The translations under genes and the position numbers were made by a program. From assembly GCF_000750005.1 (NCBI RefSeq), contig NZ_JPYA01000162.1:68556-132555 (forward strand): a stretch of DNA of 64,000 nt, in the 5' to 3' direction. The notes under the pieces were generated by a model. It was given only the letters and a program-made list of their open reading frames with translations, ran no database searches and had not been told where the DNA came from. The DNA is from Geobacillus icigianus (GTDB lineage: Bacteria > Bacillota > Bacilli > Bacillales > Anoxybacillaceae). How positions within the stretch are numbered: the stretch's first letter is position 1; the number at the start of each line of letters is the position of its first letter. Positions 35,042-54,674 of this stretch are shown here, piece by piece.

Positions 35042-35067
35042 CGAATCGAAGGCGTTTCCGCTATAAT
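35038..35067 (+). promoter_or_regulatory. Promoter overlapping the divIVA stop
   Basis: TTGACG at 35038-35043 and TATAAT at 35062-35067 are separated by 18 bases. Transcription would run through the tandem repeats toward the ileS leader, but a terminator at 35368-35404 lies between, so the target of this promoter is unclear. Confidence 0.6.
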
Positions 35068-35126
35068 AATTGGCAAAAAATCTCGCGGCTCGTTTGATCG
35101 CCGTTGAGGCACAGCTCTTCACGTTT

Positions 35127-35336
35127 CCATGAAAATGCCGAGCTGACGCGGATTTTCATCCCCGGGTGGAGGGCAGATCGCGCTGCCCATGGAACTTTTC
35201 CGTGAAAATGCCGCACTGGCGTGGGATTTTCATCCCCGGGTGGAGGGCAAACCATTGCCCATGGATCTTTTCCGTGAAAATGCCGCACGGACGCGGGATT
35301 TTCATCCCCGGGTGGAGGGCAAACCATTGCCCATGG
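35127..35336. repeat. Three tandem copies of a 72-73-base hairpin-forming repeat
   Basis: The copies contain GAAAATGCCG at 35131, 35204 and 35276, giving periods of 73 and 72. Each includes GGATTTTCATCCCCGGGTGG and GGGCA...TGCCC and ends near CCATGG. Within a unit GAAAAT pairs with ATTTTC, and in the later copies GGGCAA pairs with TTGCCC, so each unit can fold into two stems. The last two copies differ at only a few bases, so the amplification is recent. There is no coding logic. A 651-base stretch without a gene (35042-35692) holds these repeats, a terminator and the T-box leader. Confidence 0.85.
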
Positions 35337-35367
35337 GACGGTTCCGTTCTAAGTGATTGGCGAAATC

Positions 35368-35404
35368 GCCGCCTCAGCCGCCGTGGGAGGCGGTTGGCTT
35401 TTTT
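35368..35404 (+). terminator. Terminator between the tandem repeats and the T-box leader
   Basis: GCCGCCTC (35368-35375) pairs with GAGGCGGT (35387-35394), and a run of six T follows at 35399-35404. Confidence 0.7.
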
Positions 35405-35429
35405 CCGTTATGAATTGCGAATAACTATC

Positions 35430-35664
35430 GACGATGAAAGGGACAGTAGCTCTTGCACGACCGGTCGCAGCGAGCCGGGGATGGTGGAAGCCCGGCACTG
35501 GCGCAAGAGTGAACATCACCCTAGAGTTCCATGCCGAAACAACGAGTAGGACATGGCGCGTCATTCCCGTTACGAATGAAAAGTGGGCCTGTGCCTTTGC
35601 ATGGCCAAAAAGGGTGGTACCGCGAGACCGTTCTCGTCCCTTGCCGGGAGAGAACGGTTTTTTA
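35430..35664 (+). promoter_or_regulatory. T-box riboswitch leader of ileS (isoleucine specifier ATC)
   Basis: The conserved T-box core AGGGTGGTACCGCG is at 35611-35624. Stem I elements are upstream (GGACAGTAG, GATGGTGGAAGCCC). The specifier context GAAC-ATC-ACC puts ATC at 35515-35517, an isoleucine codon that fits the gene downstream. The terminator ACCGTTCTC / GAGAACGGT (35627-35658) is followed by T. Uncharged tRNA(Ile) would stabilise the antiterminator and switch ileS on. Confidence 0.93.
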
Positions 35665-35692: not shown

Positions 35693-38467
35693 ATGGATTA
35701 CAAAGACACATTGCTCATGCCGAAAACCGAGTTTCCGATGCGCGGCAATTTGCCGAAGCGGGAACCGGAAATGCAAAAAAAATGGGAGGACATGGACATT
35801 TACCGGAAAGTGCAGGAGCGGACGAAAGGCCGGCCGCTGTTTGTCCTGCACGACGGCCCGCCGTACGCCAACGGCGACATTCATATCGGCCATGCGTTAA
35901 ACAAAATTTTAAAAGACATCATCGTCCGCTACAAATCGATGAACGGCTATTGCGCCCCGTACGTGCCGGGCTGGGATACGCATGGCTTGCCGATTGAAAC
36001 GGCGCTTACGAAACAAGGCGTCGATCGCAAATCGATGAGCGTCGCTGAGTTTCGCAAGCGGTGTGAGCAGTACGCGTATGAACAAATCGACAACCAGCGC
36101 CGGCAGTTCAAGCGGCTCGGGGTGCGCGGCGATTGGGACAACCCGTATATCACCCTCAAGCCGGAATACGAAGCCCAGCAAATGAAAGTGTTCGGCGAAA
36201 TGGCGAAAAAAGGGCTTATTTATAAAGGGCTCAAACCGGTGTACTGGTCCCCTTCGAGCGAATCGGCGCTCGCCGAAGCGGAAATCGAATACAAAGACAA
36301 ACGGTCGCCGTCAATTTATGTCGCGTTTCCGGTCAAAGACGGCAAAGGCGTGCTGGACGGCGACGTGCGGATCGTCATTTGGACGACGACGCCGTGGACG
36401 ATCCCGGCGAACTTGGCGATTGCCGTTCATCCAGAGTTGGACTACCATGTCATCGACGCCAACGGCCAGAAATACGTCGTCGCCGCCGCCTTGGCTGAAT
36501 CAGTGGCGAACGAAGTCGGCTGGGCGTCGTGGTCCGTCGTTAAAACCGTAAAAGGAAAAGAACTTGAGTACGTCGTCGCGAAACATCCGTTCTATGAGCG
36601 CGATTCGTTGGTCATCTGCGGCGAGCACGTCACGACCGACGCCGGCACCGGCTGCGTCCATACGGCGCCGGGCCACGGGGAAGACGACTTTGTCGTCGGG
36701 CAAAAATACGGGCTTCCGGTGCTCTGCCCGGTTGATGAGCGCGGCTACATGACCGAGGAAGCGCCCGGGTTTGCGGGTCTGTTTTATGAAGAAGCGAACA
36801 AGGCGATTACGCAAAAGCTCGAAGAAGTTGGAGCGCTCCTGAAGCTCGGCTTTATCACCCACTCGTATCCGCACGACTGGCGGACGAAGCAGCCGACGAT
36901 TTTCCGGGCGACGACGCAATGGTTTGCCTCGATTGATCAAATTCGCGGCCAGCTCCTTGACGCCATTAAGGAAACGAAATGGGTGCCAGAATGGGGCGAA
37001 ATCCGCATCCATAACATGGTGCGCGACCGCGGCGACTGGTGCATTTCCCGCCAGCGCGCCTGGGGGGTGCCGATTCCGGTCTTTTACGGTGAAAATGGCG
37101 AGCCGATCATCACCGATGAGACGATCGAGCATGTGTCAAACTTGTTCCGCCAATACGGCTCGAACGTTTGGTTTGAGCGCGAGGCGAAAGACTTATTGCC
37201 GGAAGGATTCACCCATCCGTCAAGCCCGAACGGCATCTTTACGAAAGAAACGGACATTATGGACGTCTGGTTTGACTCCGGCTCGTCGCATCAAGCGGTG
37301 CTCGTCGAGCGCGATGATTTGCAGCGTCCGGCTGATTTGTACTTGGAAGGGTCTGACCAATATCGCGGCTGGTTTAACTCGTCGTTGTCGACGGCGGTCG
37401 CCGTCACCGGCAAAGCACCGTATAAAGAGGTGTTAAGCCATGGCTTCGTTTTAGACGGCGAGGGGCGGAAAATGAGCAAATCGCTCGGCAACGTCGTCGT
37501 GCCGGCGAAAGTGATGGAACAATTTGGCGCCGACATTTTGCGCCTTTGGGTCGCCTCCGTTGACTATCAGGCCGACGTGCGCATTTCTGACCATATTTTG
37601 AAACAAGTGTCGGAAGTGTACCGGAAAATCCGCAACACGTTCCGGTTTATGCTCGGCAATTTGTTCGACTTCGATCCAAACCAAAACGCCGTGCCGGTTG
37701 GGGAGCTTGGCGAAGTCGACCGCTATATGCTGGCAAAGCTGAACAAGCTGATCGCCAAAGTGAAAAAAGCGTATGACAGCTACGATTTCGCCGCCGTCTA
37801 TCATGAGATGAACCATTTTTGCACGGTTGAGTTGAGCGCGTTCTATTTGGATATGGCAAAAGACATTTTGTACATTGAAGCGGCTGATTCGCGCGCCCGC
37901 CGCGCCGTGCAGACGGTGCTGTACGAGACGGTTGTCGCGTTGGCGAAGCTCATCGCCCCGATTTTGCCGCACACGGCCGATGAAGTGTGGGAGCATATCC
38001 CGAACCGGAGAGAAAACGTCGAAAGCGTCCAGCTCACCGACATGCCGGAGCCGATCGCCATCGATGGCGAAGAAGCGCTGTTGGCGAAATGGGATGCGTT
38101 TATGGATGTGCGCGATGATATTTTCAAAGCGCTCGAGAACGCCCGCAATGAAAAAGTGATCGGCAAATCGCTGACCGCCAGCGTCACGATCTATCCGAAA
38201 GACGAGGCGCGCAAGCTGTTGGCGTCGCTCGACGCTGATTTGCGCCAGCTCCTCATCGTCTCGGCCTTTTCGATCGCCGATGAGCCGTACGACGCCGCAC
38301 CGGCCGAAGCCGAACGGCTTACCCATGTGGCGGTCCTCGTTCGCCCGGCCGAAGGCGAGACGTGCGAGCGGTGCTGGACGGTGACGAAAGAAGTCGGCGC
38401 CGATCCATCGCATCCAACGCTTTGCCCGCGTTGTGCGCACATTGTGAACGAACATTATTCCGCGTAG
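35693..38467 (+). CDS. ileS: Isoleucyl-tRNA synthetase
   Basis: This 924-residue class I synthetase has HIGH (His64-His67) and KMSKS (593-597), an editing domain between them (with [13 protein letters not shown] and the [15 protein letters not shown] block), and a C-terminal zinc site: Cys891, Cys894, Cys911 and Cys914. The ATG at 35693 follows GGAGGAGCAAC and gives [20 protein letters not shown]. Expression is under the T-box leader. In B. subtilis ylyA and lspA follow; here a 10-kb island is inserted. Confidence 0.97.
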
Positions 38468-38471
38468 CGAA

Positions 38472-38513
38472 AAGCGGCAGGTTGCCTTGGGGCGGCCTTG
38501 CCGCTTGCTTTTG
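38472..38513 (+). terminator. Likely terminator after ileS
   Basis: AAGCGGCA (38472-38479) pairs with TGCCGCTT (38499-38506), followed by GCTTTT. The T tract is short. Confidence 0.5.
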
Positions 38514-38771
38514 GTGGAGGAAAAAAACCAAAACGATGGTGTAAAAAACGCAAAGGGATCAGGGGGGTTGTTTTTGTCAAGAAAAAGTGCAGAATGTTGC
38601 AGTGTATAAATTCAATTCTGTAGTTGAACCAATGCTGTCAAACTCCGTGTCGCATGAGCCTCCGTCGCATTTACTCCATCATCTTCGACCACACGTTTGC
38701 TTAAAATTATAAGGTTTATAGCTCAATTTTCCTATTATTTGTGAATATATTGTGAATTCCCATGTAAAAGG
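38514..38771. other. Left border of the accessory island, gene-poor
   Basis: About 260 bases lie between the ileS terminator and the island promoter. One short frame from the GTG at 38601 encodes about 36 residues beginning VYKFNSVVEPMLSNSV and ending in HLLHHLRPHVCLKL. It has no ribosome site and may be a fragment of a mobile-element gene; I do not recognise it. Base composition becomes AT-richer from about 38560. Confidence 0.4.
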
Positions 38772-38800
38772 TTGACATTTTCTTCTTCTTTTTTTATAAT
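38772..38800 (+). promoter_or_regulatory. Consensus sigma-A promoter of the island
   Basis: TTGACA at 38772-38777 and TATAAT at 38795-38800 are perfect hexamers with a 17-base spacer, 52 bases before the first large membrane gene. Confidence 0.85.
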
Positions 38801-38852
38801 GCCATTGAATTTTACAAACATTTCAAATTCATGATTAGAGAGGGCATTCCAT

Positions 38853-40721
38853 ATGAAATGGGTGTTCATTTCAAGAATGGCGTCCCGCTTAAAAGCAGAA
38901 GCTAGTTTCATATTCGTATTTTCTGGGGTTTTGATGTTTGTTTGCCTCAATCCCCATACCATCAATCCAGCGGAATGGATCTTATATACGAAATATTTGG
39001 TTCCGATTGGAATGGCCGTCTGGCTGCTCTTCAGCTTCCGTTTGCATGTTTCGTTGTTCACTTCGACTCCAATTCACTGGATCGCGATGAATGACATCAT
39101 GCCAACCCCGCAAAAGATCGTCTTCTGCCAAACTTTGATCGCATTTATTTGTTTTTTCGCTTGGCAACTGGCCTTGGCCGGGATCATCGCCGGTGCGGTG
39201 GCGGCCAACTATTCAGCGGGTTGGGATCTTTTCACTTTTCTGTTTCCATTGTATTTGATTCATTTTCTTCTACCATTTCTATGGGCGTGGATGATCGGAT
39301 TGTCCACAGGCGCTGTTTACGCCTATCATTCTTCGAAAAAAGCAATGTTGCTCGTTGGCGTGTTTGTTTTGTGGATCATCGTGCTGTTTTCTTTGGAATA
39401 TCGCAATCCATCCTTCTCCTTGTGGGGAAACCATCGTTGGCCTTACATTGACCCGTTATTCAGCCTAACCTTCCAAAAAGAACGCGTGCTGATCAAATTG
39501 GCGTATATTCTTTCTTCCATCGCCGTTTATGGCGTTTTTCGAAGCATGCGGCGATCCTTCGCGGGGCTTGCGGCTAGTGTGACTCTCGTTATTTTCGTAA
39601 CAATTTTCCTTCAACATGCACAATCAAAATTCCAGTTGGATGACATTCTGTTGGCAAACGACGTCAAACTCTATCAACAAATTAAACATCAGGCTCAGCC
39701 CAAGAACATCCCGTTGCATGGATATTGGAAAATCAAGGAGATCGAGGTGAATCCGAAATCCACGTATCCGATCAAAGCCACACTCTCTCTGCATCCGAAA
39801 GAACACACCGTTCGTTTTTCGATCAACGAGCAATTTCAAATCGATCATATCCAAGGCGGAGGGAAGCGTTTCCCCTTTCAACAACAAGGAAACGTTGTTC
39901 AGGTGCAGACCAACGGCGCCCCATCCATGACGATCTATTATCGGCATACGTTCGGCTCAACCTTTTATCCGTTGACATCGGGCGTCACGTTGTTGCCATT
40001 TGAAGCCAACTGGTATCCACAGTCCATGGATTCAACGCTTTACGATATCGACTCATCCGGAACGCTTCATTCCAATGTGGAAACGAAAACATGTACACGA
40101 GTCAACATGATTGTCGGAAAGGAAAAGTACCGTTGGCACGGGGACCATCTCCCTTGTCTCTCCGTGATCAATGGTCCTTACAAACAAATTCAAGTGCAAC
40201 ATACTCGTTTCCTTGTTTATAAACCATTTCTCACTACAACAAGAAATTATATGGAATTGAAGCATCAACTCGTTTCCATCCGCAATGAGCTATGCGACTT
40301 GTTTCCGAATCTTGCAAAGACAGATTATTGCACAAAAGAAGTCAAGAGCGTCTCAATCATCCCAAAAAGCATCAACACCACAAACCTTTCGCTGTACGAC
40401 AGCACGGTGGCTGACGGAAACTACACGTTTTATGTTGATCCGTTCTTGGACGTCAATGGCACTCCGGCAACCATACATATTCAGGAGTTGGCTGCGTTTT
40501 TCATCCCATACCGATTGTTCGAAAACGAACAGATCAGTCTCTTTGTCGGCTTGTATTTAATGGAAAAACTACATATTCCATCTATCGGATATGAAAACAG
40601 ATTAGCAGAAAAAGCCTCCATTAACTCAACAGCATGGGAACATTACAAGGCATTATCGATGAAAGAAAAAGAAAACATACTGATTCATCTAGTACAAGAA
40701 AGGGGGAAAGGAGACAGATGA
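38853..40721 (+). CDS. Island cassette 1: ABC-2-like membrane protein with M1-peptidase-like ectodomain
   Basis: This 622-residue protein has about six to seven membrane spans in the first 250 residues, arranged like an ABC-2 permease. An extracellular region follows whose first part (IKEIEVNPKSTYPIKATLSL ... FPFQQQGNVVQV ... LLPFEANWYPQ) resembles the beta-rich N-domain of M1 aminopeptidases. At the place where HExxH should be, the sequence reads Q-E-L-A-A (544-548), so both zinc histidines are lost. AGAGAGGG precedes the ATG at 38853. It is related to the genes at 41010 and 44922. Its own ATPase gene, directly downstream, is truncated. The function is unknown. Confidence 0.75.
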   Translation: MKWVFISRMASRLKAEASFIFVFSGVLMFVCLNPHTINPAEWILYTKYLVPIGMAVWLLFSFRLHVSLFTSTPIHWIAMNDIMPTPQKIVFCQTLIAFICFFAWQLALAGIIAGAVAANYSAGWDLFTFLFPLYLIHFLLPFLWAWMIGLSTGAVYAYHSSKKAMLLVGVFVLWIIVLFSLEYRNPSFSLWGNHRWPYIDPLFSLTFQKERVLIKLAYILSSIAVYGVFRSMRRSFAGLAASVTLVIFVTIFLQHAQSKFQLDDILLANDVKLYQQIKHQAQPKNIPLHGYWKIKEIEVNPKSTYPIKATLSLHPKEHTVRFSINEQFQIDHIQGGGKRFPFQQQGNVVQVQTNGAPSMTIYYRHTFGSTFYPLTSGVTLLPFEANWYPQSMDSTLYDIDSSGTLHSNVETKTCTRVNMIVGKEKYRWHGDHLPCLSVINGPYKQIQVQHTRFLVYKPFLTTTRNYMELKHQLVSIRNELCDLFPNLAKTDYCTKEVKSVSIIPKSINTTNLSLYDSTVADGNYTFYVDPFLDVNGTPATIHIQELAAFFIPYRLFENEQISLFVGLYLMEKLHIPSIGYENRLAEKASINSTAWEHYKALSMKEKENILIHLVQERGKGDR

Positions 40722-40792
40722 TGGAATTAAAAAACGTGACCATTAAGCACCATCGCCAACTTATTTTGCATCATTGTTCCGTCAATCAGTAA
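40718..40792 (+). pseudogene. Truncated ABC ATPase remnant of cassette 1
   Basis: The frame starts at ATG ATG (40718/40721), overlaps the stop of the large gene, follows GGAAAGGAGA, and encodes MMELKNVTIKHHRQLILHHC before stopping at 40790-40792. This is the first strand pair of an ABC ATPase (compare MIHISSVTKRIKKQIIL in cassette 2). The Walker A motif and everything after it are gone. The break runs directly into the peptide remnant that follows, which suggests one deletion removed the rest of cassette 1. Confidence 0.7.
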
Positions 40793-40896
40793 AAAAATCT
40801 TTTACAGCTGAGAATGGGGCTTTCTACTATGCTGAAGCATATACACAAGCCAATGCGACCTCTATTTATGGTGAAGCAAAAGTGACTGTGAATTAA
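40792..40896 (+). pseudogene. C-terminal remnant of a small protein, upstream of cassette 2
   Basis: An open stretch of 34 codons without a start encodes a fragment that includes SFTAENGAFYYAEAYTQAN and ends IYGEAKVTVN before a TAA at 40894-40896. It resembles the remnant at 44610-44810: both share the pattern FT...G..YY.....Q....S.YG..(V)TV and stop after a V-T-V/K-type end. A 12-base-stem hairpin follows, then cassette 2. I infer the 3' part of a small, probably exported protein gene whose start was deleted. The family was not recognised. Confidence 0.5.
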
Positions 40897-40917
40897 GTTT
40901 AGACTCTTCGTTTAACA

Positions 40918-40965
40918 AGCAAGCGAATGGTCAAAACGGTTCGCCGACATTCGCTTGCTCCCTTT
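40918..40965 (+). terminator. Hairpin between peptide remnant and cassette 2
   Basis: AGCAAGCGAATG (40918-40929) pairs perfectly with CATTCGCTTGCT (40948-40959), followed by CCCTTTT. This could be a terminator or attenuator separating the small gene from the transporter genes. Confidence 0.75.
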
Positions 40966-41009
40966 TATCGTTCATCGATACGACCTTGTTGAAAATGGAG
41001 TGACAGCTT

Positions 41010-43061
41010 ATGGCTTTGTTTGCTCGCCTATCGTGGTTTTATGCCAAACAGATGGGAAAAAGCATTCTCTATATGGGAACATACACGTTTTGGTTCATCA
41101 TGTTGATGATGCGTTTTCTCATTCGCCAGTACGATTCGTTTGGTAAGACGGATTATGGAAATTTTGTCGGAGAAATGACGCTAATCGTTCAAGCGGCCAT
41201 GCTGCTGTTTATGGTGTTTTTTTACAAGTTGTTCTCTGATGAATATCGATTTGGCGCCAATCTTTTGTTTGCCGGTTCATTGCGTATCACAGCGTTGAAA
41301 ATCGCCGCCTTGTTCGCCAATCACCTGTTGTTTCTTGCATTCTTCACCAGTCTGCAAGTTGTACTCGTATGGCAGTTTTATCGGACATGGAGCCTTCCCT
41401 TTTCTTCGTTGTATACTGAAACGGCATCGTATATCGCCGCATATTGGCTATCGCCACTTGTATTTGCCTTTTTTCTTGGTATTTTCACTGCACTATTGTT
41501 CGGGAAAAGCCGATTAAGCTTTGCTTGGATGGTGATCATTTGGCTGGCAATCGGCCCGGTGAATACCCAATTGTTTTCTCGTTATTTCCAGCGCCTCCCC
41601 TTTTCCGACGTCCGTAGTTTGTTCTACATCGGTCCGTTGAATATGGACGATGTATTTCGTGATGTTATTGGATACAACGTCAGCCTTCCGACGTATATGA
41701 AACTATTGTTTTGGATTCTAACCTCGATGATGGCGGTATGGGCCATTCTTTGGAAAACAGCCCGCACTACAAAGGAGAAAGCGGCCATTATCATAGGCGT
41801 TACTTTGCTTTTGGCGGGTGATGCTTGGGTGTTTCCGCATATTTGCACAGGAAGCAAACTGGTGTTTAGTTATGCTGATTTGGATCAAGAAAACGATTTC
41901 TATCGAACTCATAACCCAACCATTTCACCGAGCACATTGCGCTATTCGATTGAACGGTACGACATTCAGCTGGAGGCCAAAAATAGTGTACATGCCAAAG
42001 TGAAAGCGACCTTGCGACAAATTCAGGGCAACACACTGTCGTTTGTGCTTTACCATCATTTTTCTCTGAAACAAATCACTGATCAAACCGGAAAACAGTT
42101 GCCGTTTATTCAACAAGGGGATGTCATCACGGTCAAACGATCATCAAATCGCTTGACCGATGAATGGACATTTGAGTATCAAATGAACGATTCGGCACAA
42201 ATTCCCGTTTCACCGCGCTATTTGTTTTTGCCGAGCGACTTCAGCTGGTTGCCGACAAAAGCCGACCATGCACCGTTTGCCTTTGTGAACGTTCATTCCA
42301 GTCCGGCGCCTGTATCGATGCAACCGAGCCATCCGATCCACTATACGTTGTCATTTCATGGAACGGTGCCGTTTTATACGAATTTGCCGCTCCGGAGCGA
42401 CGGAATGTACGAAGGAGTTGTGTCCAGCGGCATTACAGCTATAGCGGGAATGTTTTTGAAAGAAAGGATCGGACCATGGCAGATCGTGTACCCCGCCGAT
42501 TGGTCCAATCTTGAGCAGGATTGGTCCGTCTTTGAACGTCACGTGCGACGCATTCACCACGACACCGTTCAGATGTTCGGCTTAAAAGGGGTAAAGTTGC
42601 CGACAAATATCGTGTTGCTCGCTCCCCATGGTGAACAACGGAGCGTATATAGAAGCGATCATTTGCTTCTTCAAATTGATACGCCATATTCCCTTCACTC
42701 CCAAGAAGGAACATTGATGTATTTGCCGGAAATTTTAACGGAAGGACTTCTTTGGAAGGAAACGCATTCATCGAGACAAAAAGAAGTGTTTCAAGCATTG
42801 CTGACAAGATGGTTCCAGCAACAATTGGCCCTTCCCTATTCCGGAGGAGATTTGACGTTTGATGTAGCTTTGTCAGTGGACTCTCCTGATGGGAAAACGG
42901 AGGAAGAGCTCAGGCAGCTGTTTGGGGAATATGAACGCTTATCGGATAGGAAAAAACAAAAATTTTTGGCTTTATGGTATAAACAAATCAAGGAAGGAGC
43001 AGACGATAGCTGGGAGAAAACCATCCAACTTATCCGCATGGTTCGGGAGGGACAGACATGA
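41010..43061 (+). CDS. Island cassette 2: ABC-2-like membrane protein with M1-peptidase-like ectodomain
   Basis: This 683-residue protein has about seven membrane spans in residues 1-270, followed by an ectodomain (about 290-683) that begins LRYSIERYDIQLEAKNSVHA and continues like an M1 aminopeptidase N-domain (LPFIQQGDVITVKRSS, then SDFSWLPTKADHAPF). The zinc motif HExxH is replaced by P-E-I-L-T (573-577), keeping only the glutamate. The ATG at 41010 follows TGGAGTGA. The stop overlaps the ATPase start (ATGA). With the next two genes it forms a complete transporter cassette. The substrate is unknown. Confidence 0.78.
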   Translation: MALFARLSWFYAKQMGKSILYMGTYTFWFIMLMMRFLIRQYDSFGKTDYGNFVGEMTLIVQAAMLLFMVFFYKLFSDEYRFGANLLFAGSLRITALKIAALFANHLLFLAFFTSLQVVLVWQFYRTWSLPFSSLYTETASYIAAYWLSPLVFAFFLGIFTALLFGKSRLSFAWMVIIWLAIGPVNTQLFSRYFQRLPFSDVRSLFYIGPLNMDDVFRDVIGYNVSLPTYMKLLFWILTSMMAVWAILWKTARTTKEKAAIIIGVTLLLAGDAWVFPHICTGSKLVFSYADLDQENDFYRTHNPTISPSTLRYSIERYDIQLEAKNSVHAKVKATLRQIQGNTLSFVLYHHFSLKQITDQTGKQLPFIQQGDVITVKRSSNRLTDEWTFEYQMNDSAQIPVSPRYLFLPSDFSWLPTKADHAPFAFVNVHSSPAPVSMQPSHPIHYTLSFHGTVPFYTNLPLRSDGMYEGVVSSGITAIAGMFLKERIGPWQIVYPADWSNLEQDWSVFERHVRRIHHDTVQMFGLKGVKLPTNIVLLAPHGEQRSVYRSDHLLLQIDTPYSLHSQEGTLMYLPEILTEGLLWKETHSSRQKEVFQALLTRWFQQQLALPYSGGDLTFDVALSVDSPDGKTEEELRQLFGEYERLSDRKKQKFLALWYKQIKEGADDSWEKTIQLIRMVREGQT

Positions 43062-43927
43062 TCCATATATCCAGCGTCACAAAACGAATCAAAAAACAAA
43101 TCATTTTATCCAATGTATCGCTTTGTATGGAAGGGATTTACGGGTTAGTTGGACCGAACGGAGCTGGCAAGACAACATTGATGAAAATCTTGGCTGGCTT
43201 GACACCCATGAATGATGGACAGGTGGCGATTGATGGACAAAGCTGTACCAAAGGAAAATATGTGAAAGCCCCTGAACGGATCGGTTATTTGCCGCAAGAT
43301 TTCATGGTCTATCCTAACATTACGGTCGAAGAAGCGCTTGACCATCTCGCCTTATTGCAAGGAATGATGGACAAACACAAACGGCACGCAGCCGTTGCTG
43401 AAGCCATTCAAAAAGTGAACTTGAACGGACACGAGACAAAAAAGATGTCTGAGCTGTCCGGCGGAATGCGGCGACGAGTGGGAATTGCTCATTTATTGAC
43501 GCGAAAGCCATCCATCTTGCTGTTTGATGAGCCGACCGCCGGCTTAGATATTGAAGAACGAATCCGGTTTCGCCATCTGCTCAAACAGCTTGGTTCCGAA
43601 CATACGATTGTTATTTCTTCCCATATTGTGGAAGATATTGAGTTTTTATGCACCAAAATCGGAATTTTAAAACAAGGGCAAGTGTTGTTTGAAGGCACGC
43701 CGTCTGAGCTGAAGTCCTGCGCAGAAGGCTTCGTGTGGGAATATTGCATACATCCCGAAGAATTGGATGACTTGATCGCAGCGAGAGAAGTGGTACAGCT
43801 TCTCGAAGAAGAAGATGGTATTCACGCACGAGTGTTCTCGCAAAATGAGGAAACAGGGGGGAGACGGGTCAAACCACGATTGATCGATGGCTATTTGGCT
43901 GTTGTCAGAAGAGGGGGATCAAGATGA
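43058..43927 (+). CDS. Island cassette 2: ABC transporter ATPase
   Basis: This 289-residue ABC ATPase has Walker A (GPNGAGKTTLMK, near residue 35), the Q-loop region YLPQDFMVYPN, the signature LSGGMRRRVGIAH and Walker B ILLFDEPTAGLD, all intact. It is of the single-domain type used with ABC-2 permeases in drug, bacteriocin and peptide export or immunity. Start and stop both overlap the flanking genes by 4 bases, so the three genes are translationally coupled. It is closely similar to the ATPase at 46924. Confidence 0.9.
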   Translation: MIHISSVTKRIKKQIILSNVSLCMEGIYGLVGPNGAGKTTLMKILAGLTPMNDGQVAIDGQSCTKGKYVKAPERIGYLPQDFMVYPNITVEEALDHLALLQGMMDKHKRHAAVAEAIQKVNLNGHETKKMSELSGGMRRRVGIAHLLTRKPSILLFDEPTAGLDIEERIRFRHLLKQLGSEHTIVISSHIVEDIEFLCTKIGILKQGQVLFEGTPSELKSCAEGFVWEYCIHPEELDDLIAAREVVQLLEEEDGIHARVFSQNEETGGRRVKPRLIDGYLAVVRRGGSR

Positions 43928-44583
43928 GAGCTTACATCGAATGGATAAGAGCCGCTTTTGTGTTTGACCGAAAAACAATGGGCGGAGCCTGTTTTGTTCC
44001 ACCAGTGATGTTCATCCTATCACTGTTGCTTATTTTGCTTGTCGCCCGCAAACCGTCAAGTATTTACGACAATGTGATAATCATCCAAGGGCTGTTCATC
44101 CCGTTTTCCGGCTGGCACTTGATTTATCGATTCGGTGAACTGTATGAAGACGGGGCGCAAGAGACGCTTATCCCTTATTATAGGCAATGGTTTGGGATTG
44201 ATATCGTACGTTATTCTTTCATCCATTTGTTAGGGGTCGCCATGCTAAGCGGGGCATTCATGTGGAGATATGGCATTACTTCTTTGTCTTTTTTGAATCT
44301 CATTCATTTCATTCTATTGACTTTCTTTTACCTATTTTTCAGCACTGCCTCCCTTGTTCTTACAAAAAACACGAATATCGCATTGACAATCATTTTTCTT
44401 TATACGGTGCTTGAAGTGGCCACATTAGGAACGTTCATGCCTTGGCCGCATATCTTTTTGTTCGAACCACCGGTTTGGGAACCGATGCTCATCAGCAAAT
44501 TCATCATGCTAACGCTGTCCATCTTTCTAGCAGCATTCATCACCATTGTATGGATCAGTAAGGGAGATCGGAAACCCCAATAA
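43924..44583 (+). CDS. Island cassette 2: small multi-pass permease subunit
   Basis: This 219-residue protein consists of six hydrophobic segments. It is clearly related to the 210-residue protein at 47783; both share the motif TFMPWPHIFLFEPPV / TFMPWPHLFLFQAPV near the fifth span and the block GWHLIYRF..LYEDGAQE / GWHLVFLYRHLYDEGAKE. It most likely forms the second membrane component with the large gene product. No family with a known function was recognised. Confidence 0.72.
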   Translation: MRAYIEWIRAAFVFDRKTMGGACFVPPVMFILSLLLILLVARKPSSIYDNVIIIQGLFIPFSGWHLIYRFGELYEDGAQETLIPYYRQWFGIDIVRYSFIHLLGVAMLSGAFMWRYGITSLSFLNLIHFILLTFFYLFFSTASLVLTKNTNIALTIIFLYTVLEVATLGTFMPWPHIFLFEPPVWEPMLISKFIMLTLSIFLAAFITIVWISKGDRKPQ

Positions 44584-44609
44584 AGGCTAACGTTTGGCCG
44601 CAAATAACC

Positions 44610-44810
44610 TCTTCTCCCCTAAAAGCGAGAGGCTATGCTTACAAATCGATTAATTGGTGGCCCGATAGCGTCGTCGCCTCCACCAACTGGCTCAATCCTA
44701 GGCAAGAAGAAACGCGCAATTTTACACAACGAAAAGGCGATAAATATTATGGCCAAATTGTGGGCCAAACGGTTGGTTCAAGCGGATACGTGACCATTAC
44801 GGTCAAATAA
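44610..44810 (+). pseudogene. C-terminal remnant of a small protein, upstream of cassette 3
   Basis: This frame has no usable start codon and is open from about 44562 to a TAA at 44808-44810. The likely native part includes GYAYKSINWWPDSVVASTNW, then NFTQRKGDKYYGQIVGQ and the end SGYVTITVK. The last 31 residues align with the remnant at 40792-40896. An aromatic, Ser/Thr-rich sequence with a beta-like end suggests an exported protein or bacteriocin-like product. It lies between the complete permease gene of cassette 2 and the large gene of cassette 3. Confidence 0.5.
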
Positions 44811-44836
44811 CGATGCCGAATCCGGATGATAAAGGA

Positions 44837-44884
44837 GTCAGGGATACGCGTAAAAAATAAAGCGGTCCCTGACCGCATTCTTCT
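44837..44884 (+). terminator. Hairpin between peptide remnant and cassette 3
   Basis: GTCAGGGA (44837-44844) pairs with TCCCTGAC (44866-44873), followed by a pyrimidine-rich tract (CTTCTTTTG). It is placed like the hairpin before cassette 2. Confidence 0.6.
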
Positions 44885-44921
44885 TTTGTCAACTTCTTGG
44901 AAAGAAAGCGGTTGATCGGCG

Positions 44922-46940
44922 ATGAGATGGAAATGGCTGTTTGTTTTTTATTGGAAACGATTGTTGAAAAGCAAGTTATACATTGGTGCTAGTTTCTCGT
45001 TTTTTCTTTTGCTGGCCGTACGGTTTACACTATTTTTTACCGATCCGTACAATATGGAGAGTTATGGGGATATCCCTCATGAAGTGTTCATGCTTGTTCA
45101 AATCGTTTCGCTCTTTTACATCGTGTGGTTCTACCTTCTCTATTCCAACGAACTTCGTTACGGCGTTTCGTCATGGTTCGCCGATGGCTACCGAATTTTG
45201 CTGGAGAAAATGAGCGCCTTGCTTGCGGTTCATGCGCTGTACCAAGGGATCATGCTGATGATGAGCTGCGGCGTTTTTTCAATCGTGTATCTCTTCGTTG
45301 GGGTGGAGCCTTCGGATCTGTATTTGTCGTTGCTTCGGTTTCTCGCCGTCTATCAGTTTGGACCGCTCGTGCTCACCGTCCTGTACGGCGTCATCATCGC
45401 ACTGCTGTTGGAAACGAAAAAGGTCAGTTTTTTCGCTATTTTGCTTGTGTGGATCCTGACCGGACCGATGACGACGGAGCTGTTCATCGATCTATCCAAA
45501 ACTGTTCATGCCCGCGACTGGGCGTCGTTGCTGTTTATCGGAAAACACGCGATTCAACGAGCATATGATTCCTACATCGGGTTTGAGGTCGACCGCGGCG
45601 GGGAATGGAAATGGGCCGCATGGTTTCTTTCCCTTGTCGGGTTGGCGTTGTTGTCGTCGATCCGCTTTACGCAGACGAGAAAGGAGCGAAACGCCGTCTT
45701 GAAAGCATTTCTCGTCTTCCCGTTTCTGATCGTCCTAACTGCCTACCATTCCTTGCAAACGAACACCAAGGCGTTCACTCGGGCCGATCAGACGACCGAA
45801 CTCGAGGAATACCGCCAGATGAAACAAGAGACGAACGCCGATTTGCGCTACCGTATCCAGTCGTATGACCTTTCCTTGCATGGATCGCGTGCGGTCGTGC
45901 GCGTGGCCTTGTCCCAGTTGGAAACGAACCGGCCCACGTTTCAACTGTACCATTTGTATCCGCTCCACTCGATTGAAGCGGACCATCAGCCCGTCAAGTT
46001 TACAAGAAACGGCGATCTCGTGACCGTGTGGCTGCCGAAACGCACCTCGACGCTCACGTTTTCGTATGAGATCGTCGATACGGCGCTCATCCCGTACACC
46101 AACGGCCGCATCGTCCTGTTGGCGGATCGAGCGTGGTATCCGAAAAGGAGGGCTTCGCACATGTATCGGACTTATGAATATCGGATGGCGGGGATGACAG
46201 TTTGGGATGGGGCGTTCACCGATCAATTCTTTCCGGACGAAACATATACGTTTACCTTAAACGTAGACGGCGATGTGCTGTTTTGCAATGTGCCAAAGCG
46301 GGGGACGGTTTACCGAGGGAAGGCGCAAGCGGTCACCTTGATCAAAGGGCAAGGGCATCAACTCGTCGATCAAGGATATGAGATCATCTACCCGGCCGAT
46401 TGGCCGCACATGGCGGAACGGGCGCCGACGGTCATCCGCCAGATGGAAAAAACATTCCGTCATGTACAACAAATCGCATCAACGGCGGTTTCATCGTTGC
46501 CGAACAAGATTGTCTTCTCTAGTTTCGGACTGTCCTCGTTTCTCGCACACGATCATCTTGTATATAACACAGATGACTTATATGGGATCGATCAATATAT
46601 TATGGAACAAAATTTTTACGAAAAAATACTTCGGCTTTCCGTACCGCCGAAAGGATCGCGGATCATGTACAACGAGTGGATTTCGCTGGCCACCCGCTGG
46701 TTGATGCAAAAAAATGACCTGCCGGTGATCGACTGGAGCTCCAAAAGTGAGTGGTTCGAGTCGCAACCTCAATCCGTGCAGAAGCAGATTGAATCAGTGT
46801 ATAGCGAGTTTCAGTCGCTTGACGTAGACCAAAAACAGCAATTATTACGGACATGGTATGAGAACATGGACGATGCTTGGACATGGGATCGCGTCATCGA
46901 GATAATGCAGGAGGTGAAAGGCGTTGGCGGTCGTCATTGA
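44922..46940 (+). CDS. Island cassette 3: ABC-2-like membrane protein with M1-peptidase-like ectodomain
   Basis: This 672-residue paralogue of the gene at 41010 has about seven membrane spans (residues 1-265) and an ectodomain beginning LRYRIQSYDLSLHGSRAVVR. The M1-like N-domain is recognisable (FTRNGDLVTVWLPKRTS; RIVLLADRAWYPKRRAS). The zinc site is lost: the equivalent of HExxH reads Y-E-K-I-L (566-570). The ATG at 44922 has only a weak ribosome site. Its base composition is GC-richer than cassettes 1 and 2, closer to the chromosome. The last 17 bases overlap the ATPase gene. Confidence 0.77.
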   Translation: MRWKWLFVFYWKRLLKSKLYIGASFSFFLLLAVRFTLFFTDPYNMESYGDIPHEVFMLVQIVSLFYIVWFYLLYSNELRYGVSSWFADGYRILLEKMSALLAVHALYQGIMLMMSCGVFSIVYLFVGVEPSDLYLSLLRFLAVYQFGPLVLTVLYGVIIALLLETKKVSFFAILLVWILTGPMTTELFIDLSKTVHARDWASLLFIGKHAIQRAYDSYIGFEVDRGGEWKWAAWFLSLVGLALLSSIRFTQTRKERNAVLKAFLVFPFLIVLTAYHSLQTNTKAFTRADQTTELEEYRQMKQETNADLRYRIQSYDLSLHGSRAVVRVALSQLETNRPTFQLYHLYPLHSIEADHQPVKFTRNGDLVTVWLPKRTSTLTFSYEIVDTALIPYTNGRIVLLADRAWYPKRRASHMYRTYEYRMAGMTVWDGAFTDQFFPDETYTFTLNVDGDVLFCNVPKRGTVYRGKAQAVTLIKGQGHQLVDQGYEIIYPADWPHMAERAPTVIRQMEKTFRHVQQIASTAVSSLPNKIVFSSFGLSSFLAHDHLVYNTDDLYGIDQYIMEQNFYEKILRLSVPPKGSRIMYNEWISLATRWLMQKNDLPVIDWSSKSEWFESQPQSVQKQIESVYSEFQSLDVDQKQQLLRTWYENMDDAWTWDRVIEIMQEVKGVGGRH

Positions 46941-47790
46941 AGGATTGACGAAAATCGTGAAAAAAAAGGCGATTTTATCGGATGTCTCCCTCACCCTCTC
47001 CGGCGTGTACGGCTTGCTGGGACCAAACGGCGCCGGCAAGACGACGTTGATGCGCATTGTGGCCGGCCTGTTGGAGTTCAATGCCGGACGGGTGTCGCTC
47101 GGAGACGAGCCGATCAGCACCGGCACGAGGGTGAAGCGGGTGAACGAGATCGGCTATTTGCCGCAAGAGTTTATGATGTACCCGGAGCTGACGATGTATG
47201 AAGTGCTTGAGCATCTCGCTGTCTTGCAAGGTGAACATCCCGTCGCCTGCCGACCTAAAATCGAGAAGGTCATCGAACAAGTCAACTTGTCTTCGCACAT
47301 CAACAAAAAAATGCGCGAGCTGTCCGGCGGCATGCGGCGGCGAGTGGGCATCGCCATGCTGTTGCTTCGGGAACCGTCCATCCTGCTGTTTGACGAGCCG
47401 ACGGCCGGGCTTGACATCCGCGAGCGCGTGCGGTTTCGCAATTTGTTGAAGCGGCTGGGCCATGACCATACGATCGTCATCTCTTCGCATCTTGTCGAGG
47501 ACATTGAATTTCTGTGCACCAAAATCGGAGTTTTGGACCGCGGCACGGTGCTGTTTGAAGGCAGCCCGGACGAGCTCAAGCAAAAAGCCGCTCCTTATAC
47601 GTATGAGTTGGACGTGCCATTTGCGGAGCTTGACTCGGTCATGGCCACCAACGAAGTCGTGCAAATGAGCGAAGAGCCTTCCCACGTCGTCGTGCGCGTC
47701 TTGTCCGAAGAGCCGATCGGTCGGCCTGTCGCCCCGCGGCTGATGGACGGATATTTGGCGTTATTGAAAGAGGCGGAAGCGCATGGATAA
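46924..47790 (+). CDS. Island cassette 3: ABC transporter ATPase
   Basis: This 288-residue ABC ATPase starts with TTG at 46924 after GGAGGTGAAA and has Walker A GPNGAGKTTLMR, LSGGMRRRVGIAM and ILLFDEPTAGLD. It is a close paralogue of the ATPase at 43058, including the stretch IGYLPQEFMMYPELTMYE. It is coupled to the upstream membrane gene (17-base overlap) and the downstream permease (8-base overlap). A complete cassette can therefore be made from 44922 to 48415. Confidence 0.9.
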   Translation: MAVVIEGLTKIVKKKAILSDVSLTLSGVYGLLGPNGAGKTTLMRIVAGLLEFNAGRVSLGDEPISTGTRVKRVNEIGYLPQEFMMYPELTMYEVLEHLAVLQGEHPVACRPKIEKVIEQVNLSSHINKKMRELSGGMRRRVGIAMLLLREPSILLFDEPTAGLDIRERVRFRNLLKRLGHDHTIVISSHLVEDIEFLCTKIGVLDRGTVLFEGSPDELKQKAAPYTYELDVPFAELDSVMATNEVVQMSEEPSHVVVRVLSEEPIGRPVAPRLMDGYLALLKEAEAHG

Positions 47791-48415
47791 AAAGACGATC
47801 GCCCATCATTTTTCCTTCGACCGCCGCTTGCTCGGCCGATTGTACTGGTTTCCGTTTCTCGTCTACGGGCTGTGCGTCGGGTTGATGGGGATCTTGTCCG
47901 CCCGCTCCGACGAACCGTTTTTGCCGTACACCGTCATCCAAGGCATCGCCGTGCCGATCGCCGGATGGCATCTCGTCTTTTTGTACCGCCATTTGTACGA
48001 CGAAGGGGCGAAAGAAGCGCTGTTATGGCATTACCGAAAAACGGTCGTCTTCGACTTGGTTCGCTATGCTGTTTTGCACGGGGGATGCATCGTTCTTCTT
48101 GTCGCGGCGGTCATATGGATTCATGGAACGATGTTTCTCACCGCACCCGTGTTGGTGCACCTGTTTCTGCTGTTTTCGTTTTACCAGTTGATTGGGCTTG
48201 CCTTGTTAGGCGTCTTTGGCAGCCTAGATATCGCCTTATCGGTCATCGCGGTCTATACCTTTATGGAAGTCGCAACGCAGGGAACATTCATGCCGTGGCC
48301 ACATCTGTTTTTGTTTCAAGCGCCGGTCGACTCATTGTCTCTCCTTCTCCCCATGATGTGGCTGGGGGTGGGCATCGTGATCGCCGCCATTTTGATTGGA
48401 CGGGAGTTTTGGTAA
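47783..48415 (+). CDS. Island cassette 3: small multi-pass permease subunit
   Basis: This 210-residue protein has six membrane spans and is a paralogue of the one at 43924 (shared TFMPWPHLFLFQ and GWHLVFLY). It overlaps the ATPase gene by 8 bases. It is the last gene of the island before lspA. The function is inferred only from context: the membrane part of an export or immunity transporter. Confidence 0.72.
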   Translation: MDKKTIAHHFSFDRRLLGRLYWFPFLVYGLCVGLMGILSARSDEPFLPYTVIQGIAVPIAGWHLVFLYRHLYDEGAKEALLWHYRKTVVFDLVRYAVLHGGCIVLLVAAVIWIHGTMFLTAPVLVHLFLLFSFYQLIGLALLGVFGSLDIALSVIAVYTFMEVATQGTFMPWPHLFLFQAPVDSLSLLLPMMWLGVGIVIAAILIGREFW

Positions 48416-48648
48416 ACGAATTGGAAGCCATCGGCTGAATGTGGGGATGAGGAGCTTCTATGGAACGATGTCGGTTCGTTTAGTGCACCCGGCCGCACAC
48501 TCCTCTTGTCGCTTCCATGGTCAGGAAGTGAGAAGTCGCTTCTCCTTATCATGGCTAATTGAGATGGCCGCCGTAAATCGAAAAAAGCTCTCTATAAAGT
48601 CTTGACTGACTCCTTTTTGCCGCTTCATTTGTTTGCCATGGCGAATTA
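48416..48648. other. Right border of the island, no gene seen
   Basis: This short stretch before lspA holds a small hairpin (GAGAAG/CTTCTC near 48530-48544). It has no credible gene and no further peptide remnant. Confidence 0.5.
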
Positions 48649-48657
48649 TGCTACAAT
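48649..48657 (+). promoter_or_regulatory. Extended -10 promoter for lspA
   Basis: TGCTACAAT at 48649-48657 is an extended -10 element 40 bases before the lspA start. The same nonamer stands before panE at 7222. A usable -35 was not found. Confidence 0.5.
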
Positions 48658-48697
48658 GCAAAAAGGATGAATGAGAAGGACAGGGGGATTTGGCACG

Positions 48698-49162
48698 GTG
48701 GCATACTATTGGCTTGCGGCGGCGGTCATCATCCTCGATCAATGGACGAAATGGCTTGTCGTCCGCTCTATGCGACTTGGGGAAAGCATCCCGATCATCG
48801 ACAACGTGCTCTACATTACGTCGCACCGCAATCGCGGAGCGGCATGGGGCATGCTGGAAGGGCAGTTTTGGCTCTTTTATTTGATTACGGTGATCGTCGT
48901 GGCGGCGATCGTGATTTACATCCGCCGCCTGAAGCCTTCCGAGCGCCTAGCCGGCGTGGGGCTTGGGCTGATGCTCGGCGGGGCGATCGGCAATTTTATC
49001 GACCGCGTATTCCGGAAAGAAGTGGTCGACTTTATTCATACGCACATCGGCACGTACAGCTTTCCGGTGTTCAATATCGCCGACTCGGCGCTGACGGTTG
49101 GCGTCATCTTGCTGTTTATTCATCTATTTTTTTTCGCGACACCAGAGAAAGGGAATGAGTAG
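48698..49162 (+). CDS. lspA: Lipoprotein signal peptidase (signal peptidase II)
   Basis: This 154-residue protein has four membrane spans and cleaves signal peptides of prolipoproteins at the lipobox. The two catalytic aspartates are Asp102 (in GNFIDRV) and Asp129 (in NIADSA), with [13 protein letters not shown] earlier. The GTG at 48698 follows AGGGGGA and gives the 154-residue length of B. subtilis LspA; the upstream ATG at 48671 is rejected for that reason. It is followed directly by rluD. Confidence 0.95.
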
Positions 49163-50886: not shown

Positions 50887-50899
50887 CGCAAGCTCCCTT

Positions 50900-50993
50900 T
50901 TAAGCGCAGTCCCGCGAGGCTGCCAAAGGGGCGGAATGGTTTCGGCTGTTTCTGCACCCTCTTTGTGCCTGCGCGGGCCAAAGAGGTTTTTTT
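50900..50993 (+). promoter_or_regulatory. PyrR-dependent attenuator 2 (pyrR-pyrP)
   Basis: The PyrR-binding loop GCAGTCCCGCGAGGCTGC is at 50906-50923. The terminator CCTCTTTG / CAAAGAGG (50958-50986) ends in seven T. It governs read-through into pyrP. Confidence 0.93.
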
Positions 50994-52341: not shown

Positions 52342-52349
52342 TCGAACAG

Positions 52350-54674
<2,325 letters not shown>

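Follow-up and report, generated by a model that had tools for sequence, protein, structure and literature searches.

The question raised by this locus is what a group of transporter genes, lodged between ileS and lspA of a thermophile, is for. The locus lies in a 64,000-nucleotide stretch of the Geobacillus icigianus genome (contig NZ_JPYA01000162.1; the whole stretch is called the window here, and the genome, G000, comprises 3.46 Mb) and holds three large open reading frames (ORFs), two of which have genes for an ATPase and a small permease downstream. On balance, we favor the hypothesis that these cassettes are the immunity half of bacteriocin-like pairs, left orphaned in the window, in which a secreted partner would be antibacterial and the cassette proteins would bind and transport it. 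The original prediction, made from sequence, had described three paralogous proteins of 622, 683 and 672 residues, two of them coupled to an ATPase and a small permease of the ATP-binding cassette (ABC) type, and all seven ORFs were recovered:

38853 to 40721, plus strand: big1, a 622-amino-acid (aa) membrane protein akin to big2 and big3, which opens the older operon described below.
41010 to 43061, plus strand: big2, 683 aa, an ABC-2 permease with a pseudo-M1 domain by homology to big3.
43058 to 43927, plus strand: atp2, a 289-aa ABC ATPase in which the Walker A, LSGG and Walker B motifs are present.
43924 to 44583, plus strand: perm2, a small membrane protein of 219 aa that presumably forms the second permease half, with no family match in Pfam or NCBIfam.
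44922 to 46940, plus strand: big3, 672 aa, an ABC-2 permease (residues 1 to 250) with a pseudo-M1 ectodomain (about 300 to 672).
46924 to 47790, plus strand: atp3, a 288-aa ABC ATPase.
47783 to 48415, plus strand: perm3, a small membrane protein of 210 aa that presumably forms the second permease half, with no family match in Pfam or NCBIfam.

The proposed fusion of an ABC-2 permease to an M1-like domain was borne out by structure prediction for the product starting at 44922. The big3 model (predicted local distance difference test [pLDDT] of 90) comprises a NosY-fold ABC-2 permease joined to an M1-aminopeptidase fold. This ectodomain resembles aminopeptidase N, LTA4 hydrolase and the D. radiodurans M1 enzyme at 8 to 13% identity over the aligned part; unlike them, it is fused to a permease and lacks the HExxH zinc motif, which was absent from all three large proteins of the window and from 53 of 53 database proteins longer than 550 aa. 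The chains matched from NosY (of the NosDFY complex, which serves nitrous oxide reductase according to the title of 7qba) are 246 to 269 residues long and hence have no M1 domain. Nucleotide-binding domain (NBD) motifs and the permease fold identify the cassettes as NosY-like ABC-2 transporters. The ATPases atp2 and atp3 are ordinary ABC ATPases (PF00005 at 114.8 and 105.3 bits), with matches below cut-off to TIGR03608 (L_ocin_972_ABC; 121.9 and 108.5 bits, cut-off 254.85) and TIGR03740 (LanFEG/gallidermin type; 144.3 and 139.4 bits, cut-off 309.75). As had been anticipated, no family with an assigned function covers the large proteins, which score below all Pfam and NCBIfam cut-offs. By sequence, they are old, distant paralogues (big2 and big3 are 25% identical, big1 and big3 17%). 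The triplication first proposed is not a clean one, for remnants of three further genes are present. Assignment to a defense system was rejected, PADLOC matches being confined to the two ATPases, as was a phage origin, a search of 50,697 phage records having given no match to big3.

What the original prediction missed is a gene for a secreted peptide. The three-gene order, which it had proposed to look for in other Firmicutes, was found in relatives. Many of them have a further gene just ahead of the large one, and its product, about 130 aa long, starts with a signal sequence. In the structure model of this peptide, a signal region is followed by an 8-strand β-sandwich (pLDDT about 95 over residues 32 to 130). 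For the following counts, signal peptides were called by a scripted hydropathy rule in place of SignalP, and the starts of some large genes were placed manually. In a class-level sample chosen by large-protein score alone (17 of the 18 places above 165 bits, with G730:C132 left out), a small secreted-type ORF lay within 400 bp upstream of 10 of the 17 large genes, compared with 1 of the 47 ORFs that served as controls (Fisher p = 1.2e-6). Among the seven misses, a C-terminal remnant of the peptide is clear in locus L139, likely in L132 and about 10 residues long in L130; no upstream peptide remnant was seen by eye in L125, L127, L129 or L131. Across the fetched loci, an ORF of 80 to 200 aa with a signal-like N terminus lay within 400 bp upstream of 20 of 38 large genes, a set that includes the three window genes and several near-identical Geobacillus copies, versus 9 of 219 other ORFs; with L116, which was found through the peptide search, taken out, the count is 19 of 37. 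Where present, the peptide gene lies 31 to 194 bp upstream of the large gene.

The association also holds when approached from the peptide. A peptide profile found 27 places in 16 of 397 genomes: 17 intact, 8 truncated or damaged, and 2 weak (G054 and G251, set aside as probably chance matches). Downstream of 14 of the 17 intact peptides lies a full-length large gene (in one case beyond a tandem second peptide); a fifteenth, in genome G120, is followed by a 507-aa protein that hhalign places in the large-protein family (probability 98.3, E = 1.2e-14). Over 15 loci, evolutionary distances covary between peptide and large protein (Mantel r = 0.875, p = 0.0001), between peptide and ATPase (0.818) and between large protein and ATPase (0.748). 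The peptides that were scanned scored below every Pfam and NCBIfam cut-off, matched no lantibiotic model and had no related sequence in the PDB (best E = 1.4), and identity with a known bacteriocin was rejected; named families cover neither the large protein nor the peptide. Tandem peptide genes stand before a single large gene at L136:4575-5281, L089:7826-8696 and G021:C3:390944-391759, and one copy of the G021 pair carries a stop codon. Elsewhere in the window's own genome is a second cassette (L046; G000:C32:1-4472), in which the peptide, large protein, ATPase and small permease are all open.

We speculate that the small protein is exported by Sec, as its signal sequence suggests, folds as the modeled β-sandwich and attacks competing bacteria. 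In the producer, the permease half of the large protein, the small permease and the ATPase would assemble into an ABC-2 transporter, a view in keeping with fold and gene order. The extracellular M1-like domain, devoid of the zinc motif, could then bind the cognate secreted protein, and ATP-driven movement could clear it from the membrane or target, allowing the producer to survive. A bacteriocin with ABC-type immunity is suggested because a small self-secreted protein is paired with a dedicated ABC transporter whose ectodomain lacks a catalytic motif, and because the genes are distributed sporadically, in part on plasmids, with transporters persisting beside truncated or missing peptides. If true, reuse of a peptidase fold as a transporter receptor would be an unusual route to bacteriocin immunity.

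In the window, the peptide genes themselves are broken. Short frames between the cassettes were identified as remnants by searching them in relatives, in which all three genes are intact:

40718 to 40792, plus strand: 5' remnant of a degenerate ATPase (NBD1), with a stop after about 24 codons.
40783 to 40896, plus strand: 3' remnant of peptide A, its signal peptide and N-terminal part lost.
About 44622 to 44810, plus strand: 3' remnant of peptide B, about its first 70 codons lost.

At 40718 to 40896, a deletion has run the degenerate ATPase and peptide A together. Compared with L034, about 830 bp are gone (junction at 40783 to 40787), including most of NBD1 and the 5' portion of peptide A; the peptide A remnant is 97% identical to that of relatives over 34 aa. 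The loss of peptide B appears to be older, because the sequence of its truncation junction is common to the window and genomes G009 and G011. In L038, L045, L087, L089 and L124, the operon runs big1, ATPase-like gene, one or two peptides, big3, ATPase and small permease (in L045 a contig end cuts the ATPase, and the big1 match is interrupted). Comparison among loci suggests that the older operon consisted of big1, the degenerate ATPase, peptide B, big3, an ATPase and a permease. Another module, made up of peptide A, big2, an ATPase and a permease, would have entered this operon, cutting off the start of peptide B, and a deletion would later have ruined the degenerate ATPase and peptide A. The transporters stayed under selection, perhaps as resistance genes.

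NBD1 occurs as a full ORF of 207 to 239 aa in L033, L034, L038, L045, L087, L089 and L124 and is encoded directly after big1 in L034 (15233-15856), L038, L045, L087 and L089. Alignment of these last five loci shows that NBD1 is degenerate there too: Walker A has changed from GPNGAGKT to AKNHIRTD or similar, without its lysine, and the Walker B Glu is replaced by Gln. Because NBD1 and big1 are conserved across the five aligned loci, a nonhydrolyzing companion complex is suggested. In the window, big1 persists without NBD1.

The island as a whole is an insertion of 10.1 kb (38507 to 48625), bounded by a direct repeat with just two copies within 38400 to 48700:

38498 to 38506: left 9-bp direct repeat TTGCCGCTT, the island border, inside the terminator-like stem of ileS.
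48617 to 48625: right copy of the repeat, TTGCCGCTT, the island's other border.

The gene lspA begins at 48671, after perm3. The island is absent from this site, and the ileS-lspA gap only 82 to 87 bp, in 9 of 14 genomes of the Geobacillus genus; seven of these nine empty sites hold a single copy of the exact 9-mer, and the remaining two hold its first 8 bases. The island or parts of it occupy the site in G006, G010 (across a contig break) and G011, with a 0.9-kb remnant in G013, and all four hold additional copies elsewhere; in G009 the site is empty and the island lies elsewhere. The ratio of nonsynonymous to synonymous substitution rates (dN/dS) of the transporter genes is 0.07 to 0.26 where computable, indicating purifying selection (against G015, two comparisons were not computable and two more had saturated dS; the G011 copy of atp3, with an internal stop, was excluded). 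For big3 it is 0.22 against G011 and 0.25 against G009. Both genomes have the same truncation of peptide B, so that, unless recombination carried the truncated segment between genomes, big3 seems to have been retained for a role apart from its own peptide.

Some observations weigh against the immunity hypothesis. At G025:C2 an intact peptide accompanies a large gene without its permease half, and in G013 the large gene beside an intact peptide survives no further than about residue 321; both count against a strict rule that toxin is paired with immunity. Bacteriocins of the lactococcin 972 type (lactococcin 972 and streptococcin B) are described as three-gene operons in which a β-sandwich bacteriocin, thought to be Sec-secreted, is followed by two presumed immunity/transport proteins whose function is described as unverified, and strains lacking a functional peptide exist and are inhibited by producers (PMC11796350). 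Judged by analogy, this parallel supports the layout that we propose and not the step of orphaned immunity.

The lactococcin 972 type is nonetheless the nearest parallel, the shared layout being a Sec-secreted β-sandwich protein, a membrane protein and an ATPase, as seen in loci of relatives and not intact in the window. It differs in that our cassettes have an extra small permease and that their large protein combines a NosY-like ABC-2 permease with a pseudo-M1 domain. Sequence does not place the cassettes in the family, since no named model covers the peptide or large protein and the ATPases fall far below the L_ocin_972_ABC cut-off. The Pfam and NCBIfam libraries presumably hold models for the lactococcin 972 peptide and membrane protein. 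Lactococcin 972 was not among the best 50 matches listed for each peptide fold search, which says nothing about a difference in fold. Transporters of the LanFEG/gallidermin type likewise have two unlike membrane proteins per ATPase, as the window cassettes do. To our knowledge, they have no large ectodomain; the window ATPases match their model far below its cut-off, and the lantibiotic models do not match the peptide beside the cassette. A large Geobacillus bacteriocin, geobacillin 26 (PMC13176240, PMC8868475), was set aside by its description, not by sequence: it has 245 aa and an α-helical core, and the term "ABC transporter" is absent from the main text of PMC13176240.

Among the functions first put forward (exporter, immunity pump or envelope system), immunity is the one we now favor, and the others fare less well. 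An envelope or signaling system, which we consider unlikely, would kill nothing; the secreted protein would be a ligand or an extracellular transporter subunit that senses or services the cell surface. Pairs of genes resembling extracytoplasmic function (ECF) sigma and anti-sigma factors adjoin some loci, as in envelope stress systems, and the tight covariation of peptide and large protein would suit a subunit equally well. However, if the subunit were required, the many open transporters (under selection where tested) beside a missing or truncated peptide would be forbidden, and the sporadic, partly plasmid-borne distribution also argues against such a system. That the cassette is a dedicated exporter, secreting or releasing the small protein, agrees with the adjacent genes and the ABC-2 architecture and is improbable all the same, as the peptide's own Sec-type signal leaves an ABC transporter unneeded for export and transporters persist without the peptide. 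We give equally little credence to a general detoxification pump for the peptide antibiotics of others, to which the neighboring peptide would be a decoy, sensor or passenger: 13 of the 38 large genes are at non-Geobacillus loci without an upstream peptide, two of them (L085 and L086) with a sigma/anti-sigma-like pair in its place, but the peptide, where present, covaries with the large protein and sits at close range upstream. Lastly, that the ectodomain is an active M1 peptidase which breaks down the peptide extracellularly is very improbable, for the fold over residues about 300 to 672 comes without HExxH in every protein searched.

Returning to bacteriocin immunity, a broader proposal, plausible and held with less than even conviction, is that the Bacilli possess a family of antibacterial secreted β-sandwich proteins, each with its own ABC transporter bearing a dead M1 ectodomain as a specific immunity receptor, sometimes with a phospholipase A2-like partner toxin and an ECF sigma factor, and that many genomes keep the transporters alone as resistance genes. 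The large-protein profile (E = 1e-10) matched 42 of the 397 genomes sampled at order level and 32 of the 398 sampled at class level, tallies that share some genomes, include weak matches to frames of 701 to 848 aa and derive from scoring the two best candidates per genome; a contig scan with one pattern gave at least 9 loci. Ten plasmid records have a large-protein match, one of them conjugative with an upstream secreted-type gene. Of six plasmid loci inspected, three (L119, L122 and L123) carry a small gene of the secreted type immediately upstream and one (L120) carries such a gene between the large gene and the ATPase; none is annotated in L118 and L121, a weak negative because PLSDB gene tables are incomplete. 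Peptide B (P0060) had no match in the plasmid records, though the plasmid loci carry diverged secreted-type genes. The β-sandwich family is absent from the family libraries and was not found in literature searches, nor did these yield an ABC-2 permease with an M1 aminopeptidase, such permeases with bacteriocins, or phospholipase A2 with a Bacillus bacteriocin or ECF sigma factor. An unnamed membrane-protein family would thereby gain a directly testable role, and scattered "ABC transporter permease" annotations would become markers for unrecognized secreted proteins. Secreted antibacterials from thermophiles, should these proteins prove to be such, could find practical use.

The ECF sigma/anti-sigma-like pairs adjoin cassettes in L042, L043, L048/L085, L086, L094, L095, L099, L100 and plasmid L123, including loci where no peptide was found; their domains were confirmed with Pfam for L048 and L095 only (PF04542/PF08281 and PF13791/PF13800) and are annotated in L123. 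In L042, L043, L044, L088, L094, L095, L119, L120 and L122, the locus of the cassette also encodes a Cys-rich protein, which has a long leader and carries the motif CCxxHDxCY at its C terminus. Its resemblance to phospholipase A2 is weak (the best Pfam match, in L088, has E = 0.0067 and falls short of the cut-off); it is a possible partner toxin. Among the weak matches to long frames are loci of four other Bacillales genomes (L101 to L104), which encode a distant relative of the large protein, of 735 to 752 aa. Its neighbors, in a different gene order, are ATPases, a gene resembling those for sigma factors and one more small gene.

The promoter that had been noted ahead of the island genes was also recovered:

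38772 to 38800, plus strand: sigma-70 consensus promoter (TTGACA-17-TATAAT), preceding big1, a consensus match only.

It matches the -35 and -10 boxes at 12 of 12 positions with a 17-nucleotide spacer and is the sole such site; promoter-like sites overall numbered 13, versus 12.9 expected in shuffles. Upstream of the ileS T-box, at 35061 to 35549, a peptide-level motif (HFHGK...GDENP) recurs in overlapping ORFs, which suggests a short DNA repeat. A T-box leader precedes ileS (35425 to 35644), and PyrR binding sites lie in the pyr region (50892 to 50993 and 52348 to 52476), as expected.

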